This document shows positions 3,567 through 29,593 of a stretch of DNA of 34,448 nucleotides, one piece after another. How positions within the stretch are numbered: position 1 is the first letter of the stretch; every line of letters starts with the position of its first letter. The notes below the pieces were generated by a model, which did not search any database, was not told the DNA's origin, and saw only the letters and a program-made list of their open reading frames with translations. This DNA is from a virus: the IMG/VR virus record IMGVR_UViG_3300027746_000535, positions 1 through 34,448 of that record; one strand, 5' to 3'. The translations under genes and the position numbers were made by a program.

Positions 3567-4940
3567 TCAATTTTGTCGTTTTGCTGGCAAAAGAGTATTT
3601 GCTTGCAAGTATTGTTGGGCAGGGGCAAGGGTCTGGGCAGTAGCGGCAAGGCCAGCCCCTCTCATTGGAACGCTGCGCTGCATAATTGTTCCTAATCCTT
3701 TTGACAACGGGTTTTCTGTTGCAGATGCTAAAGCAGCACTTAAACCACCTGTAGGCTTGATGACTTGGGATTTTAAGATGTCGCCAAGTTCTCCCAAGTC
3801 TTTATACAACGGGTTAGCAGCCGCTCTACCACCTGTTCTGCGCGTAATCTCATCAAGCAACTTTTCTGGGTTAACTTGACCAGAAGCAGTGATGCCTGTC
3901 TTGCCTTCCAACTGAATCAAGTCACTGATAGCAGACCAAGAGTTGTATTTCTTTCTCCATGCGTCATACTGCTTTGCTTCAGCGCCTGTAAGATTTTTAG
4001 AGGCAAGTTCTTCTAGGGCATCTTTTAAGTCATGCAAAACTTTTGCCTGTGGGCCTTTTGCACCAGACAACGCTGAATTAACTTGAGTGATTGCTCCTCG
4101 CAAGTCTTCAGCTTTGAACTGAGGACTTAAAAGTTCACCACCAGCACGTTGACCACCAATGTTTTTTTCAATAATTGTCCTAGCAGTGTTTCCTTGTTGA
4201 CCAAAAATGCCTTCAGCTTCATTGACAATATCTTGTATTTTTTGTGGAAAACCCGGCTTTGATGTAAATATTTTGCCAGCAAACAAACGTCCTACTTCAT
4301 TGCCAAGTTCAGCTTGCGTCTGTTCTACCCATGCCGCATTAACATTAGCTGTTCGTTTTCCAGCCCGTGCAGTAGCCTCTTCAGTAAATTTATCAAGGTT
4401 TCTAATGGCGCTTTGTGGAGTGCCACCAGAGCCGTATTTCATGCCTTGCGTAGCTTTTGCACCATAGTCAATTTCATAACCCAAGTTTTTTGCTTTTTTA
4501 GATAAAGCAGCAAGAGGCTTTTGAATGTACCCAAGAGTCCTGCCTAAAACATCCGCAGTTCCTTGACCAACACCACCACCAACAATTTCTGCAAGTGGTT
4601 GATATTCCTCAGGAACTCCAATTTCTTCAGCCGCTTGACCTAATGTTGTTGCTCCTACAAAACCAAGAGCAGAAGGAATGCCACCAGTAAAAGGAGCAGA
4701 GGCTAAAGCATAAGGAAGGTTACGCGCTGCCCTACGGGTAAGTCTTTCTGGAAAAGTTTTAGGTTTTGGTAAATCAAAACTTTCTGCAATTTTTTCACCA
4801 GTAAAAGGAATTGACTCTGCAAATCCTCTTGCAGCAGCACCCACACCACCTTTTAACCCACTAGGCGCTTTTAGTGGTGCTAGTAGTTCTACTCCGTCAG
4901 CAGACCTTGGGGGAGGCAATAACTCTATTTCATCAGCCAT
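3567..4940 (-). CDS. Internal virion (ejection) protein candidate, 457 residues
   Basis: Predicted mostly helical. The N-terminal third is Ala/Gly/Pro-rich with weakly hydrophobic stretches (LPYALASAPFTGGIPSALGFVGATTLGQAAEEI). The middle carries charged helices (NLDKFTEEATARAGKRTANVNAAWVEQ; LSGAKGPQAKVLHDLKDALEELASK). It is one of four large helical proteins encoded in a row between the tail fibre and lysis genes, the place of internal core or ejection proteins in podoviruses. No enzymatic motif is visible. The function rests on position and composition only. Confidence 0.55.
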   Translation of the reverse strand: MADEIELLPPPRSADGVELLAPLKAPSGLKGGVGAAARGFAESIPFTGEKIAESFDLPKPKTFPERLTRRAARNLPYALASAPFTGGIPSALGFVGATTLGQAAEEIGVPEEYQPLAEIVGGGVGQGTADVLGRTLGYIQKPLAALSKKAKNLGYEIDYGAKATQGMKYGSGGTPQSAIRNLDKFTEEATARAGKRTANVNAAWVEQTQAELGNEVGRLFAGKIFTSKPGFPQKIQDIVNEAEGIFGQQGNTARTIIEKNIGGQRAGGELLSPQFKAEDLRGAITQVNSALSGAKGPQAKVLHDLKDALEELASKNLTGAEAKQYDAWRKKYNSWSAISDLIQLEGKTGITASGQVNPEKLLDEITRRTGGRAAANPLYKDLGELGDILKSQVIKPTGGLSAALASATENPLSKGLGTIMQRSVPMRGAGLAATAQTLAPAQQYLQANTLLPAKRQN

Positions 4941-4942
4941 AG

Positions 4943-6544
4943 TTACTCCTGTACTTCTTTAACTATACCGCCATAAACACGATATGTTTTGCCGCCAGCC
5001 CTTGCGCCTGTTCCATCAGGTTTACCTTTTAAAGCCGTTTCAATGTTTTCTGGTACACCAGACTTAGGCGCTCTCTCTTTGATGTAATCCGTTGTTGACT
5101 TTGCTTCCATCAAAGGAAACAACTCTGGGTTGTTATGACGCTCTACATTTAACTTGTAAACACGCAAGTTTCTGTTGTTCTCTTCTGCACGTTCTTTGAT
5201 GATGTTTATCAAAGTGTCTTGGCGAGATGCTTGGTCATATAAGTTTTGGAACTGTCTATCCAAATAAACAGAGCCTCTTTGACCAGAACCACGAACATCA
5301 GCTAACGCTAAACCAAACAATTTCTTTTGCAAGATTTTTGCTGATTCTGCATCATCTTTGTTAACACTTCCAGATTGAACAGCCCTATCAATTGCAGCAT
5401 CAACTGCTTGTGATTTTTCCACCGCAGCAGCACCTTCATCTTCATTCTTGATGCTTTTGATAGCATCCATCTTGATAAAGTTTTTGATAGCAGCCATAGC
5501 ACCAACTGCTTTAGGATTCTTTGCTATGAAGTCAGCAACTTGTTCTGACTCTTCTACCGCACGATAAGAGCCTTGAACAATTTTCTTGTCTTCAGTAGAA
5601 GCGCCAACAAGTTTGTCAGCAGAACCTTCTGCGTAGTTTTCTGCAATGTTTCTTAGAGCAGGGCCAATAGCTTGCAATGCTTTCTCATCTCTACGTCCTT
5701 GAGCCGCAGTTAAAATAGCTAAACGCATTCTTTCTCTTGCAGCCATATCTTCACGATGACGCTGTGCATCTGCTATAACTTTGTCTGCCGCCAATTTACG
5801 GGTTGCTGCTTTATCTTGCTCATTTAACACAAGTTTGAGCGCAGCTTCACGGCCTTGCACAGTGTCGTTTAAAGTTTCTAGTGCGCGGATAATCTCACCC
5901 CTGTCCACCATAGCTTTGATAATTGGACTTCCAGCTTCTACCGCCGCCATTTTTGCGTTTGCTAGACCAGCCTCTTTGTCAACAGCAGCCAGCTTTACCG
6001 CATCTTCCATTTTCTTGCGAAACTCTTCATGCTTCTTAATCATAGACTTAAAGTTCTTGTCAAACTCCGTAGCCTGTTTTTTGTATAAATCAGCACGGCC
6101 TTTTTGGTGACCTTCCAACATTCCGTTCATGGCGCTCAAGGCTTGCATAGCATTTAGCTTGCCGCCACCACCAAGCAACATACCCATCACGCTAACCATA
6201 GAAAACAGTCCTGCAATGTCTTTTGCAGATTCTTTGTCTGGCACAAAAGCAGGAAGCGGCTCTGCTATTAATTGGCTCTGGTATGTGTCTTCTGCGCCTC
6301 TTATGTCTTCAGCTTGCTTCTTTGTAGCTGCTACTTCACCTTTGGCAGAAACCAACTCTTTTTGTTGTTTGGCCTGTTCTACTGCTAAATCAGCGCCAGA
6401 CAACTTTTCTTGCAATACACGTTTCTTAGGCGTAAAGGGTTCTCTAACACCCAATACGTCTTGCATAGTGAGTTCTCCTGCCTTGGGAACTTTAGGCAGA
6501 GGTGTGTATTCACCAGTGTCAAGAGTTGAGAATGTATCAGCCAT
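4943..6544 (-). CDS. Internal virion protein candidate, coiled-coil rich, 533 residues
   Basis: Long charged helices dominate. Residues about 40-85 (LSGADLAVEQAKQQKELVSAKGEVAATKKQ) and 140-310 (KKHEEFRKKMEDAVKLAAVDKEAG and ARERMRLAILTAAQGRRDEKALQ) are coiled-coil-like. A short hydrophobic Gly-rich patch (IAGLFSMVSVMGMLLGGGGKLNAMQAL, about 109-135) interrupts them. The C-terminus ends in a beta-like GGKTYRVYGGIVKEVQE. Spacing to both neighbours is 2 bases. Size, composition and place fit an internal core protein ejected with the DNA. No lytic domain is recognised. Confidence 0.55.
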   Translation of the reverse strand: MADTFSTLDTGEYTPLPKVPKAGELTMQDVLGVREPFTPKKRVLQEKLSGADLAVEQAKQQKELVSAKGEVAATKKQAEDIRGAEDTYQSQLIAEPLPAFVPDKESAKDIAGLFSMVSVMGMLLGGGGKLNAMQALSAMNGMLEGHQKGRADLYKKQATEFDKNFKSMIKKHEEFRKKMEDAVKLAAVDKEAGLANAKMAAVEAGSPIIKAMVDRGEIIRALETLNDTVQGREAALKLVLNEQDKAATRKLAADKVIADAQRHREDMAARERMRLAILTAAQGRRDEKALQAIGPALRNIAENYAEGSADKLVGASTEDKKIVQGSYRAVEESEQVADFIAKNPKAVGAMAAIKNFIKMDAIKSIKNEDEGAAAVEKSQAVDAAIDRAVQSGSVNKDDAESAKILQKKLFGLALADVRGSGQRGSVYLDRQFQNLYDQASRQDTLINIIKERAEENNRNLRVYKLNVERHNNPELFPLMEAKSTTDYIKERAPKSGVPENIETALKGKPDGTGARAGGKTYRVYGGIVKEVQE

Positions 6545-6546
6545 GA

Positions 6547-7575
6547 TTACGCTCCCGTAGTAACTTTGTCTGGAACACCAGCCATTATCCTAGCCATGTT
6601 TCCAAAGTAGTCTGTTGTCAACTTGCTCACATACTGGTCAGCTTGCAGTCCTGTTTTGATAGCACCAGTGATGATGTTATCCGCAATACCAGACAGCTTC
6701 AGACCGTAGTCATACTGACCTTGCAACAACTGTTGTCGGAAGGCTTCTACCTGTGCCATAGACTGTTGTGCGCCTACACCGCCACGGCGCTCTGCACCCT
6801 GCGCTGCCTGTGCTTGCACTGCTTGCAATTGCTGTTGTCCAACAGGCGTAAGTTCTCCACGCTGTGCTTTGCCAATCATTTCTTGTGCTTGCTGCTTGTA
6901 AGGTGCAGCCAGAGCAGACAGTTCTTGTTTACCAGCTTGCCCAGCTTCTTGTGCTTTGTTGGCCTGATAAGCGCCCACTAATCCCTGTATTCCAGAGATA
7001 CCTAATTTTTTCAAAGTCTCTTCACTAAAACCTGTTTTCTCTGACAATTGACCTAACAAACTTTTATCTGTTTTTGTAGTTACTGGAGAAGTAGGTATTT
7101 CACCAAACGCACCGTACTGAGTTGGCGTTGCAGCGTCACCTCCGTATAGGGCAGGCTGGGTGGCAAACGTAGGCATAGATACATCAGGCGTAGATACATT
7201 AGACGTAGCAACGTCTGGGCCAGCCGGTCTTATAGTGTCTACGCCGGAAGACATAACAGAAGCATTAAATTGTGTTGGATTTAATGGTGTTAAATCAGGG
7301 GCAGCAACTTCTGACTCAGGTGTAAACCGAGCGGGAGGATTGATGTAGTCCTCTTCCGTGTATTGATAAGCATCACCTATACCTGATTCATCAAAAGATG
7401 GAATACCAGTGTCTTCATGTGGTTGACCAGAGCCTCCACGTTCTTTCAGCAAATCTGCTTCCTCTTGGTTGATGTACGCCAACATGTGACCGGGCGGGGC
7501 TTTTTTCTGTAGAAGCCTCGCTATCTTGCGTATATCGCCGCCAACACTGGTAATTTGTCTTACTGCTGATGCCAT
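6547..7575 (-). CDS. Internal virion protein candidate, 342 residues
   Basis: The N-terminal segment (IARLLQKKAPPGHMLAYINQEEADLLKERGGSG, about 18-50) is of a type I remember in short-tailed freshwater phages. A disordered Pro/Thr-rich linker follows (about 70-160). Residues 200-300 form a Gln/Ala-rich helical part (LQAVQAQAAQGAERRGG; EAFRQQLLQGQYDYGLKLSGIADNIITGAIKTG). Neighbours on both sides are other large helical proteins, 2 bases apart. The product is probably part of the ejected core or the tail hub. No catalytic motif seen. Confidence 0.55.
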   Translation of the reverse strand: MASAVRQITSVGGDIRKIARLLQKKAPPGHMLAYINQEEADLLKERGGSGQPHEDTGIPSFDESGIGDAYQYTEEDYINPPARFTPESEVAAPDLTPLNPTQFNASVMSSGVDTIRPAGPDVATSNVSTPDVSMPTFATQPALYGGDAATPTQYGAFGEIPTSPVTTKTDKSLLGQLSEKTGFSEETLKKLGISGIQGLVGAYQANKAQEAGQAGKQELSALAAPYKQQAQEMIGKAQRGELTPVGQQQLQAVQAQAAQGAERRGGVGAQQSMAQVEAFRQQLLQGQYDYGLKLSGIADNIITGAIKTGLQADQYVSKLTTDYFGNMARIMAGVPDKVTTGA

Positions 7576-7577
7576 GA

Positions 7578-8765
7578 TTACACTCCTAGAGCGTCTTTAA
7601 GACGCAAGGTTTCCTCGTTCCAAACTTTTTTACGCTTCTTACCCGTGGACGGGCCTTCAATTTCACCAGCCCCACGGGATGATGTCAACCCTGTTGTTGT
7701 ACCTAAAGCCTGACCTAAAACAGTAGTGGAGGTAGGCTTAGTGGGTGCTTTCGGTTGCTTGCCGCCAAGGATAAACAGGTTTGGCTTGTAAGGCTTGTCT
7801 TCTGCTGGCTTTTCCTCTGGCTTTTCTTCTGCTACTGCTGCTGGTTCTTCCACTGCCGCAGGCTTTTCTACTTCCGCAACATTTAAAGGTGTCTCTTCTC
7901 TCTTATTAGTAATAGTTACATCATCTAGCTGGACAGGTGTATCAATAATATCTGTGCTTGTAATTTCTAGTGGCGGTCTTTGTGCAGTAACTACAACATC
8001 CTGTAACTTAGGATTACCAGCATCGGATACCACACCAGTATCTAACGAAGCGTACTGAACACCACCCGCCATTGAAGCATCTTCAGATTTAAGAGGAATA
8101 CCTCTTAAAGTGTCTGAAACATCTGCTTTTGCTTGACTGCCTAATTCTCCTGCTGCTCCAGCAAGCGCACCTGTAACTCCACCTGTTACTCCACCAGCAA
8201 CAGCAGAGCCTAAGACTCTTCCTGTTGAACGTGTGTAATCTTCTCCACCCAATTGATACGCAGAAGATGCAGCAGAGCCTGCTAACGCCCCTGTCATGTT
8301 GTTGATAATGTCTTGTTCTGTTCCACCTGCCGCAGCAGTTTTTAACGCAGAAGCACCAGCAGATGTAATCATGTCTGACACGGCTGGATTACCAATAACG
8401 GCATTGATTTCTTTTGCAGCAGCAGGAGAATACCCGCTTACTGTTGCAGTTACTATAGAATTTTTAAGAGCTTGTTCGATTGGTACACCTTGAGCCACTT
8501 GAGCAGCCGTGCTTGCAATAGCAGTTCCAATGTACGTTGCTGCCGCTTCACCAGTAACAATACCCGCTGCCATCAATTGACTACCTATAGCAGAACCAAT
8601 ACCAGGCAAAGCAACAGACAATGCAACAGCCGCAATTACTGCGGCATTTTTATTTACAAATTTTTCAACAGGTTGGAAAATATCCGTTAATGTTTTGGAT
8701 ATGGCTTTTTCTACAGGTTGGAAAATTTCTGTAGCAGCATCTTCTAATTTTTTAAGTGCGCCCAT
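7578..8765 (-). CDS. Internal virion protein with Gly/Ala-rich hydrophobic core, 395 residues
   Basis: Residues 40-215 are nearly all small hydrophobic residues (for example AAVIAAVALSVALPGIGSAIG at 41-61; VLGSAVAGGVTGGVTGALAGAAG at 184-206), which suggests insertion into or across a membrane during DNA ejection. The N-terminus holds a 15-residue repeat (TEIFQPVEK at 12-20, TDIFQPVEK at 27-35). Two short motifs, LQDVVVTAQR (254-263) and LDDVTITNKRE (280-290), resemble the plug motif of TonB-dependent receptors. A Glu/Pro/Ala-rich linker and a basic C-terminus (TGKKRKKVW) follow. Role inferred from composition and location. Confidence 0.55.
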   Translation of the reverse strand: MGALKKLEDAATEIFQPVEKAISKTLTDIFQPVEKFVNKNAAVIAAVALSVALPGIGSAIGSQLMAAGIVTGEAAATYIGTAIASTAAQVAQGVPIEQALKNSIVTATVSGYSPAAAKEINAVIGNPAVSDMITSAGASALKTAAAGGTEQDIINNMTGALAGSAASSAYQLGGEDYTRSTGRVLGSAVAGGVTGGVTGALAGAAGELGSQAKADVSDTLRGIPLKSEDASMAGGVQYASLDTGVVSDAGNPKLQDVVVTAQRPPLEITSTDIIDTPVQLDDVTITNKREETPLNVAEVEKPAAVEEPAAVAEEKPEEKPAEDKPYKPNLFILGGKQPKAPTKPTSTTVLGQALGTTTGLTSSRGAGEIEGPSTGKKRKKVWNEETLRLKDALGV

Positions 8766-26726: not shown

Positions 26727-26766
26727 GCGGCAGATTGTGCCGATATTGTTTAAAGGATGTTCCACT

Positions 26767-27552
26767 ATGACAAACACTAACATTAGTTGGTCTGCTCTAC
26801 TCTCAGATGCAGTTAACCAGCCCGGCATTCTCAGCAGTGCCTATTCCACGTTTTATCAATACAGCATAGGCAATCAGATGATGGCCTACTCTCAACTGGT
26901 AGGCAGGGGAGAGCAGTTATCCCCTATAGCTACTTATGCCAAGTGGCAAGCACTAGGCCGTCAAGTTAAGAAAGGCGCGAAGGCTATCCAATTGTGTATG
27001 CCTGTCACTATCAATAAAAAGGATGATGCCGGGGCTAAGACAGGGGAAGCCTTCCAGCTATTCATTGTTAAGAATAACTGGTTTTCTATGTCTCAAACTG
27101 AAGGCGCAGACTACCAACATGAGCAGGCCACTGCTGAATGGTCTAAGGCCTTGGCACTGCCTGCCCTTGGCATTACTGAAGTGGCATTTGCAATGATGGA
27201 TGGCAATTGCCAAGGATACGCTACTGGTAAGAATATCGCTGTAAACCCTGTCGCTATCCTGCCGCATAAAACTAGATTTCACGAATTAGCCCATATTGTT
27301 TTAGGCCATACGTTAGAGCATACGATGTCAGATAGTGAGCAGACACCTAAAAGCATTAAGGAAGTGGAAGCGGAGTCAGTGGCATATATCTGCTGCTCTA
27401 TCCTTGGCCTTGATGGTCTGGTAGAGAGCAGGGGCTACATTCAGAATTGGCTGCAAGGCAATGAAATTAGCGATAAGACAGCACAAAAGATATTCGGTGC
27501 AGCAGAGAAAATACTGAAGGCAGGCAAAGCAAAGGCAGAGCAGGCAGAGTAA
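26767..27552 (+). CDS. ArdC-like antirestriction protein (ssDNA-binding plus metalloprotease domain)
   Basis: 261 residues from the ATG at 26767, preceded by TTTAAAGGATGTTCC. The N-terminal half matches the ArdC single-strand-binding domain: NQMMAYSQLVGRGEQLSPIATYAKWQALGRQVKKGAKAIQLCMPV (36-80) and FIVKNNWFSMSQTEG. The C-terminal half has the zinc protease motif HELAH (172-176) and a downstream EVEAESVAYICC that supplies the third ligand. ArdC proteins carried by plasmids shield incoming DNA from host restriction. As an early gene it would act at the start of infection. Active-site residues look intact. Confidence 0.8.
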   Translation: MTNTNISWSALLSDAVNQPGILSSAYSTFYQYSIGNQMMAYSQLVGRGEQLSPIATYAKWQALGRQVKKGAKAIQLCMPVTINKKDDAGAKTGEAFQLFIVKNNWFSMSQTEGADYQHEQATAEWSKALALPALGITEVAFAMMDGNCQGYATGKNIAVNPVAILPHKTRFHELAHIVLGHTLEHTMSDSEQTPKSIKEVEAESVAYICCSILGLDGLVESRGYIQNWLQGNEISDKTAQKIFGAAEKILKAGKAKAEQAE

Positions 27553-28672: not shown

Positions 28673-28857
28673 CCCCCTGCGAGGGGCTAGGGGTCTGTCA
28701 GCGAAAGGCTACCCCTTGCTGGAATTGTCCTGTGCTATTAAAAAGGAAGCAGAGGAAGATGCCCTCGCGCACCCCTGCGCCTAGTCTCTCGCCCATGACC
28801 ATCATGGTGCAGGCCTTAACAACTCCCAAAGGTAACAAAAATGGAGCAATTAAATGA
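28660..28857 (+). CDS. Possible 65-residue Cys-rich protein
   Basis: Open from a GTG at 28660, overlapping the preceding gene by 13 bases and the methyltransferase gene by 17. It reads MAAITPCEGLGVCQRKATPCWNC, so Cys7, Cys13, Cys20 and Cys23 could form a zinc site, then a basic Ser/Pro-rich tail. It fills an otherwise empty 168-base gap, but the GTG start without clear ribosome site keeps confidence low. Confidence 0.35.
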   Translation: MAAITPCEGLGVCQRKATPCWNCPVLLKRKQRKMPSRTPAPSLSPMTIMVQALTTPKGNKNGAIK

Positions 28858-29593
28858 GTTGGCTCTTTTCGCAGGCGCTGGTGGAGGAATACTTGCCGGA
28901 AAGCTGCTCGGATGGAGAACAGTCTGCGCCGTTGAGTGGGAGCCGTACCCAGCAAGCGTACTGTGCGCCCGACAAAATGACGGATTTCTCGCGCCTTTCC
29001 CAATTTGGGATGACGTACAAACCTTTGACGGAAAGCCGTGGAGAGGCATTGTTGACGTTGTATCTGGCGGATTTCCTTGCCAAGACATCAGCGCAGCAGG
29101 AAAAGGCGCAGGAATTGACGGAGAACGAAGCGGAATGTGGGGAGAAATGGCGCGCATCATTTGCGAGGTACGACCCCGCTACGCATTCATTGAGAACTCC
29201 CCAATGCTCACTATTCGAGGACTCGACAGAGTATTGTGCGACCTTGCCCGCATGGGGTTTGATGCGAGATGGGGAGTGTTGGGAGCAGCGGACGTTGGAG
29301 CGCCGCATCAGAGGGACAGGATATGGATTGTTGCAACAAACATGGCCTACTCCAAATGCGGGGATGTACAGAAACTTAAATTACAACAAAGAACTTTGTT
29401 TCAAAAGGGCAGAGAAACATCAGACCGATTTAGCGATGGTATCGGTAATGCAGTTTGGTGGGCAACTGAACGTGGCGTGGGCCGAGTGGCTAATGGGCTG
29501 GCCGGTGCAGTGGACAGAATTAAAGCCATTGGCAATGGACAGGTCCCCCTCTGTGCAGCAACAGCTTGGAAAGTGTTGACAAGGGATTTATGA
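28841..29593 (+). CDS. dcm: DNA cytosine-5 methyltransferase
   Basis: 250 residues, AAAGG before the ATG. Ordered motifs: I FAGAGGG (10-16), acidic VEWEPYP of motif II, IV GGFPCQDIS with catalytic Cys80, VI ENS at 118-120 (usual form ENV), VIII QRDRIWIVA (157-165), X GNGQVP (231-236). The target-recognition stretch between VIII and X is short, about 65 residues, typical of compact phage enzymes. It methylates cytosine in DNA to block host restriction. Bases 28854..29579 are at the same time open in another frame that encodes a known-looking companion protein (see that entry). Confidence 0.85.
   Translation: MEQLNELALFAGAGGGILAGKLLGWRTVCAVEWEPYPASVLCARQNDGFLAPFPIWDDVQTFDGKPWRGIVDVVSGGFPCQDISAAGKGAGIDGERSGMWGEMARIICEVRPRYAFIENSPMLTIRGLDRVLCDLARMGFDARWGVLGAADVGAPHQRDRIWIVATNMAYSKCGDVQKLKLQQRTLFQKGRETSDRFSDGIGNAVWWATERGVGRVANGLAGAVDRIKAIGNGQVPLCAATAWKVLTRDL
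28854..29579 (+). CDS. Overlapping companion protein in the +1 frame of the methyltransferase gene
   Basis: 241 residues, nested in the methyltransferase gene. Its ATG has GGAG 7 bases upstream, made of the first codons of the other gene. It starts MSWLFSQALVEEYLPESCSD and has MTDFSRLSQFGMTYKPLT (about 42-59), TSAQQEKAQELTENE (77-91), WPTPNAGM (162-169), and AWAEWLMGWPVQWTELKPL near the end. I recall phage proteins with the same series of blocks (MxWLFSxALVEEY; FSRLSRFGMTxxxLT; KTSAQPE; WPTPxA; WVEWLMGWPxGWTxLK) encoded as separate genes. Their C-terminal motif is exactly what the methyltransferase motif VANGLAG-VDRIKAIGNG gives when read one base over. Function unknown. Confidence 0.6.
   Translation: MSWLFSQALVEEYLPESCSDGEQSAPLSGSRTQQAYCAPDKMTDFSRLSQFGMTYKPLTESRGEALLTLYLADFLAKTSAQQEKAQELTENEAECGEKWRASFARYDPATHSLRTPQCSLFEDSTEYCATLPAWGLMRDGECWEQRTLERRIRGTGYGLLQQTWPTPNAGMYRNLNYNKELCFKRAEKHQTDLAMVSVMQFGGQLNVAWAEWLMGWPVQWTELKPLAMDRSPSVQQQLGKC

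Follow-up and report, generated by a model that had tools for sequence, protein, structure and literature searches.

The small β subunit of M.EcoHK31I (176 aa) is nested within the gene of its α subunit (309 aa), in another reading frame. The large subunit contains motifs I–VIII and X of the DNA cytosine-C5 methyltransferases and the small subunit contains motif IX (PMC3404938). In M.AquI, which acts on CYCGRG, the catalytic half and the half with the recognition domain and motif IX are also carried on two polypeptides (PMC3404938). C5-methyltransferases in general possess a recognition domain and a motif IX (PMC3404938). The TL motif of their recognition domains has the core P(STCA)PT(ILV)(TASV) and sits 10–50 residues ahead of motif IX (PMC2413257).

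The DNA analysed here is a viral stretch of 34,448 nucleotides (IMG/VR record IMGVR_UViG_3300027746_000535), hereafter the window, which is a tailed-phage genome with genes for a terminase, a portal and a major head protein. A dcm ORF and an ORF in its +1 frame occupy the same DNA in the window, and both are under selection. The shared DNA most probably codes in two frames for a DNA cytosine-C5 methyltransferase of two subunits, with the dcm frame encoding a catalytic subunit (α) and the companion frame a subunit for recognition and motif IX (β).

The closest known enzyme is M.EcoHK31I: the window pair divides the motifs alike, with I–VIII and X in α and IX in β, and β lies inside α in another frame in both cases. 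The two differ in that the predicted target-recognition domain of M.EcoHK31I is in the large subunit whereas the window has a TL-like motif in β, and in that M.EcoHK31I (YGGCCR) belongs to a restriction-modification system whereas the window pair is a phage gene; no restriction enzyme partner was recognised among the window genes scanned. From its motif layout and nesting, the pair is placed as probably working like M.EcoHK31I and not as a member of its group. The second polypeptide of M.AquI also contains motif X, which in the window is in α, so that M.AquI resembles the staggered genes gp92/gp91 of Mycobacterium phage Blue7, unlike the window. The two-polypeptide reading has natural precedents in M.EcoHK31I and M.AquI (PMC3404938). 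In PHROGs, phrog_363 and phrog_1008 are two families, both named 'DNA methyltransferase', and the window frames match one each; the search output carries no remark linking them as the two readings of a single gene. No earlier report of a phage-wide overlap of this kind was found in open-access papers. What appears to be new is its breadth, covering at least two phage dcm families and many phyla, and the recognition motif in β.

Organization of the overlapping genes

The features of the locus are as follows.

26737–27552, + strand: anti-restriction-protein-like gene, upstream (phrog_7245, E=2.7e-16)
28828–28832, + strand: AAAGG, ribosome-binding-site-like, 8 nt 5' of the α start (read from sequence)
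28841–29593, + strand: α (dcm), catalytic C5-cytosine methyltransferase frame, 250 aa, with motifs I–VIII and X, without motif IX or TL motif
28843–28846, + strand: GGAG, ribosome-binding-site-like, 7 nt 5' of the β start, within α codons 1–2 (read from sequence)
28851–28853, + strand: TAA in the β frame, abutting the β ATG on its 5' side
28854–29579, + strand: β, +1-frame companion of the phrog_1008 family, 241 aa, with TL-like recognition motif and motif IX
28868–28888, + strand: α motif I, FAGAGGG (AdoMet binding)
29066–29086, + strand: α motif IV, GGFPCQD (catalytic cysteine)
29192–29209, + strand: α motif VI, ENSPML
29309–29332, + strand: α motif VIII, QRDRIWIV
29343–29360, + strand: β TL-like recognition motif, WPTPNA
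29466–29513, + strand: β motif IX, LNVAWAEWLMGWPVQW
29525–29548, + strand: α motif X, AIGNGQVP

Both ORFs agree in position, length and frame with those given in a sequence-only reading of this DNA, and the GGAG site that it had placed 7 bases ahead of the second ATG is present. The α and β starts are 13 nt apart in the window, and the ribosome site of β lies inside the first dcm codons. The layout of a stop followed by ATG at the β start is common to most relatives. Most relatives have ATGA or GTGA before the companion ATG and starts 4 nt apart; a minority show the spacing of the window (13 nt) or another one, with the second ribosome site again inside the first dcm codons. Where the starts are 4 nt apart, one ribosome site may be common to both.

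The α frame matches Pfam PF00145 (E=2.4e-30) and phrog_363 (E=1.8e-66), and its similarity to M.HhaI is limited to residues 6–165. It contains the motifs that define a C5-cytosine DNA methyltransferase, namely I, IV (PCQ), VI (EN), VIII and X. The sequence-only reading had credited it with all main motifs of these enzymes. This detail was wrong: α has those five, but the +1 frame holds motif IX and the recognition domain. The 64 residues between motifs VIII and X of α contain neither motif IX nor a TL motif in frame, so α alone lacks the motif IX and target-recognition domain that lie between VIII and X in one chain. Motif IX is likewise absent from 202/217 distinct dcm ORFs.

Both reading frames are open and constrained

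Any conserved gene read in a shifted frame yields some similarity, and the +1 ORF could in principle be a shadow that mirrors the conserved dcm protein and its codon usage and is not translated. This explanation is considered extremely improbable in view of several tests. In 75/75 distinct IMG/VR relatives picked by dcm similarity only, the +1 frame contained 0 stops between dcm residues 8 and 235, against 4.7 expected per sequence when synonymous dcm codons are shuffled; the +2 frame of the same relatives contained a mean of 16. Among 32 disjoint pairs drawn from companion-selected loci, α-synonymous changes creating a β stop were realised 14 times vs 137 expected, an approximately tenfold depletion. 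The dSN/dSS ratio was 0.30, with simulations giving 1.0 under dcm-only constraint and 0.4–0.5 under dual coding. The best control was internal and was provided by single genes whose companion begins part way, in which codons before and within the overlap were compared for pairs 20–30% apart: differences at codon positions 1/2/3 were.184/.134/.457 outside the overlap vs.301/.176/.315 inside, the pattern changing exactly at the overlap start. For equal nucleotide divergence, companions were also more alike in identity than in the dcm-only simulation, a result that is model-dependent. The dNN/dNS ratio (0.67) was no lower than in dcm-only simulations (0.62–0.65), as a shadow ORF would predict, and was dropped as support for dual coding. 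Against the shadow ORF stand also the motifs of the +1 frame, which are exactly those absent from dcm and are in frame in single-chain relatives (see below).

Both frames are thus open across relatives and each is constrained beyond what the other frame requires. The second conserved protein that the sequence-only reading had proposed inside dcm is borne out by the openness and selection tests, and the two comparisons it had pointed to, of synonymous sites in both frames and of codon-position variation, show constraint on both frames and a shift at the overlap start, respectively. A full-length open +1 companion was present in 78/80 loci kept from at least 599 companion-encoding IMG/VR stretches, and β or α was broken in a few relatives (L020 and L036; L018/L164).

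The companion frame carries a recognition motif and motif IX

The search of the 241-residue protein against phage proteins returned phrog_1008 (E=1.2e-20). In β, WPTPNA is followed by LNVAWAEWLMGWPVQW, with approximately 40 residues from PTP to LN, giving a motif IX of the pattern LNxxWxEWLMGWPxxW after a PTP-type TL motif. The PTPN of the window is a loose fit to the TL consensus. Across nested or staggered loci, the strict motif, P(STCA)PT, was found in 107/224 companions (+1) vs 0/224 dcm frames, and it was in frame 0 of 14/17 single-chain enzymes. The companions (L001–L348) contain 0–5 PTP-type motifs each, mostly 1–2; by analogy with multispecific phage methyltransferases, multiple PTP motifs might represent several recognition modules.

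The assignment of the companion as a recognition and motif IX subunit is made mainly because motif IX and the TL motif complement the dcm frame: they are missing in α and present in β. Among 80 viral loci selected by the catalytic half, the companion was in +1 at 79/80. Motif IX was assigned to +1 at 60 of these loci and to frame 0 at 16; 4 were undecided, and no locus had it in both frames, the looser cases having been read by eye. The frame-0 cases are single-chain actinophage enzymes, as in Gordonia phage Phinally, where the catalytic frame runs on through PTP repeats, RLxxxFxEWMMGxPxGWVTD and motif X. The single-chain motif IX aligns with that of the companion (hhalign P=92.6%, E=4.6e-7), and the model of the one single chain predicted has a pLDDT of about 95 at IX–X and matches M.HhaI. 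In Mycobacterium phage Blue7, gp92 (I–VIII) and gp91 (+1: PTP, motif IX and X) are staggered genes and, judged from their motifs, this pair is an open split of the parts of the window pair. At one further locus (L336), an apparent indel puts part of the companion in +1 and the rest in +2.

The C-terminal WLMGWP-WT of β had been interpreted as motif X and its approach read one base over. The single-chain alignment points instead to the motif IX of the enzyme, which in the single-chain relatives is in the frame of motif X. Accordingly, RVANG..RVDR ahead of X in dcm is more likely to be a shadow of motif IX than motif IX a shadow of it.

It is also conceivable that the +1 frame encodes a genuine overprinted protein whose role is not that of a methyltransferase subunit, such as a regulator or a host-takeover or anti-restriction factor. 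C5-methyltransferases contain nothing equivalent to the N-terminal ~100 residues of β, Pfam and NCBIfam searches with the companion gave no domain match, and an anti-restriction gene lies upstream, all of which would suit such a role. This is nonetheless judged unlikely, as the complementarity of motif IX and TL with α, the in-frame fusion in single-chain enzymes and the Blue7-type split all point to a methyltransferase subunit. On the other side, two results count against the two-subunit reading. Searches of PDB sequences with the β profile and the motif-IX segment gave chance matches or none and found no solved methyltransferase. AlphaFold2 modelling of β alone gave a pLDDT of 59 and a model with no fold match in the PDB; the poor model is compatible with an obligate partner, yet is not evidence for one.

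A further possibility is that programmed frameshifting fuses N-terminal α to C-terminal β, either replacing separate initiation or occurring alongside it. The single-chain relatives are examples of a working fusion, and their +1 ORF retains a match to the central part of the companion. However, β in the window and its close relatives has its own ATG right after a stop, with an SD-like site, and motif X is in the α frame, so that a chain fused past motif VIII would be without X, making frameshifting very unlikely. The +1 ORF kept in the single-chain loci (L277–L298; L176:1757–2191) matches companion positions ~96–208 and may be a relic of a nested state or a sign of frameshifting.

In the preferred two-subunit reading, the dcm frame would give α, with AdoMet binding, the catalytic Cys and motifs I–VIII and X, and a second start 13 nt downstream on the same mRNA would give, in the +1 frame, the smaller β, which would carry the small DNA-recognition domain with its TL-type recognition motif and motif IX. 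Either subunit alone is expected to be inactive, and together they would make one C5-methyltransferase. We infer that β is translated and associates with α, and that the pair is active, has a target site and plays an anti-restriction role.

Distribution and annotation of the overlapping pair

The two-frame arrangement proved widespread among phages and prophages. Relatives of the companion were found in at least 599 IMG/VR stretches. Among bacterial and archaeal loci matching the companion profile, 77/80 overlap dcm in +1 and the other 3/80 have both parts within one frame-shifted ORF. These loci come from Pseudomonadota, Verrucomicrobiota, Actinomycetota, Planctomycetota, Spirochaetota, Gemmatimonadota, Nitrospirota, candidate phyla and archaea. 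About 3% of 369 genomes in a gammaproteobacterial sample were positive, all with overlapping frames, and 4 plasmid records were matched when searched with the single window protein. In the genome of the actinomycete Lentzea albidocapillata (G002, L352), six companion-profile matches lie at about five places.

Profile searches of genome contigs, the gammaproteobacterial sample and viral contigs yielded no stand-alone companion gene. A companion that existed as a separate gene and moved into dcm was rejected, as no free copy was found. The sequence-only reading had assigned the blocks of the 241-residue protein to separate phage genes, which did not hold, given the +1 overlap at 77/80 genome loci and 79/80 viral loci; genes that look separate are this overlap with a single frame annotated. 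Public records mostly annotate one frame, usually dcm, which probably explains that assignment. The records of Vibrio phage 1.236.O, Pseudomonas phage phPA-G and Mycobacterium phage XFactor instead have the companion, under the name 'hypothetical protein', and both frames are annotated in Paenibacillus phage Toothless. The matches of phrog_1008 include Blue7 gp91, Toothless_54, XFactor gp67 and the C-terminus of the single-chain Phinally gp5.

A second phage dcm family, of the AYYNEIDPxAAxWLRNLI type, is present in Escherichia phage XY2, Klebsiella phage LASTA and Edwardsiella phage PVN06. Its +1 ORF contains a motif like TPT/PTPTxxDWKD and has xxLMGxPxEW at its motif-IX end. The overlap layout is the same as in the window, whereas the catalytic family is distant and the β proteins align weakly (E 1e-10 to 1e-17 at genome loci). 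In one dcm ORF of this family (L362, 105–2132), an intein-like insertion is located at the catalytic PCQ motif, upstream of the +1 companion, starting with CFPEGTLVLTKRG and ending with VHN before CQPF.

Origin of the nested arrangement

As a motif IX and a recognition domain are common to C5-methyltransferases (PMC3404938), the companion frame probably predates dcm in the 3' half, where the dcm sequence from VIII to X, with RVANG..RVDR ahead of X, is probably the later of the two readings. For the 5' half the order is probably the opposite, dcm being older than the companion. Two compensating frame changes flanking the recognition domain would give the nested layout. A broader proposal, to which we give about an even chance, is that at least two large families of phage C5-methyltransferases are normally dual-coding, each frame being ancestral in one half as a result of two such changes. 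The dcm frame would then be ancestral in I–VIII and X and the companion in the recognition domain and IX, the companion N-terminus and the dcm stretch VIII–X having arisen by de novo overprinting. Exchange and selection of recognition modules, of which a companion often has several as PTP units, would take place in one frame, and the catalytic chain would have to tolerate the other frame's reading of the exchanged modules.

In a tree of catalytic domains, the single-chain enzymes and the staggered actinophage genes are placed within lineages of the nested type, suggesting that they are later rearrangements, on a root that is only a midpoint. It had been suggested that the companion arose as an overprinted gene inside dcm and that this phage retains the ancestral overlapping state. 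The companion is indeed genuine, conserved and widespread, but de novo overprinting explains at most its N-terminal part; the nested state looks old on the tree, but a midpoint root is not proof that it is ancestral.

Genome context and significance

RecE/RecT-like genes lie downstream of the overlap locus, and the anti-restriction-protein-like gene lies upstream. Elsewhere in the window are a second, different DNA methyltransferase-like ORF (599–1156, + strand; phrog_2675, E=6e-13) and, in the late region (3567–8765, − strand), four long ORFs (342–533 aa) without a PHROG match. The phage probably methylates its own DNA with the α–β pair against host restriction, a likely self-protecting and restriction-evading role.

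To our knowledge, the overlap of ~240 codons would rank among the most widespread long same-strand overlaps in double-stranded DNA phages. As a consequence of one-frame annotation, the same gene is a 'DNA methyltransferase' in one phage and a 'hypothetical protein' in another, and an enzyme cloned with the dcm frame alone preserved is expected to be inactive. The overlap would come with a stated function for both frames, and cultivable laboratory phages allow it to be tested.
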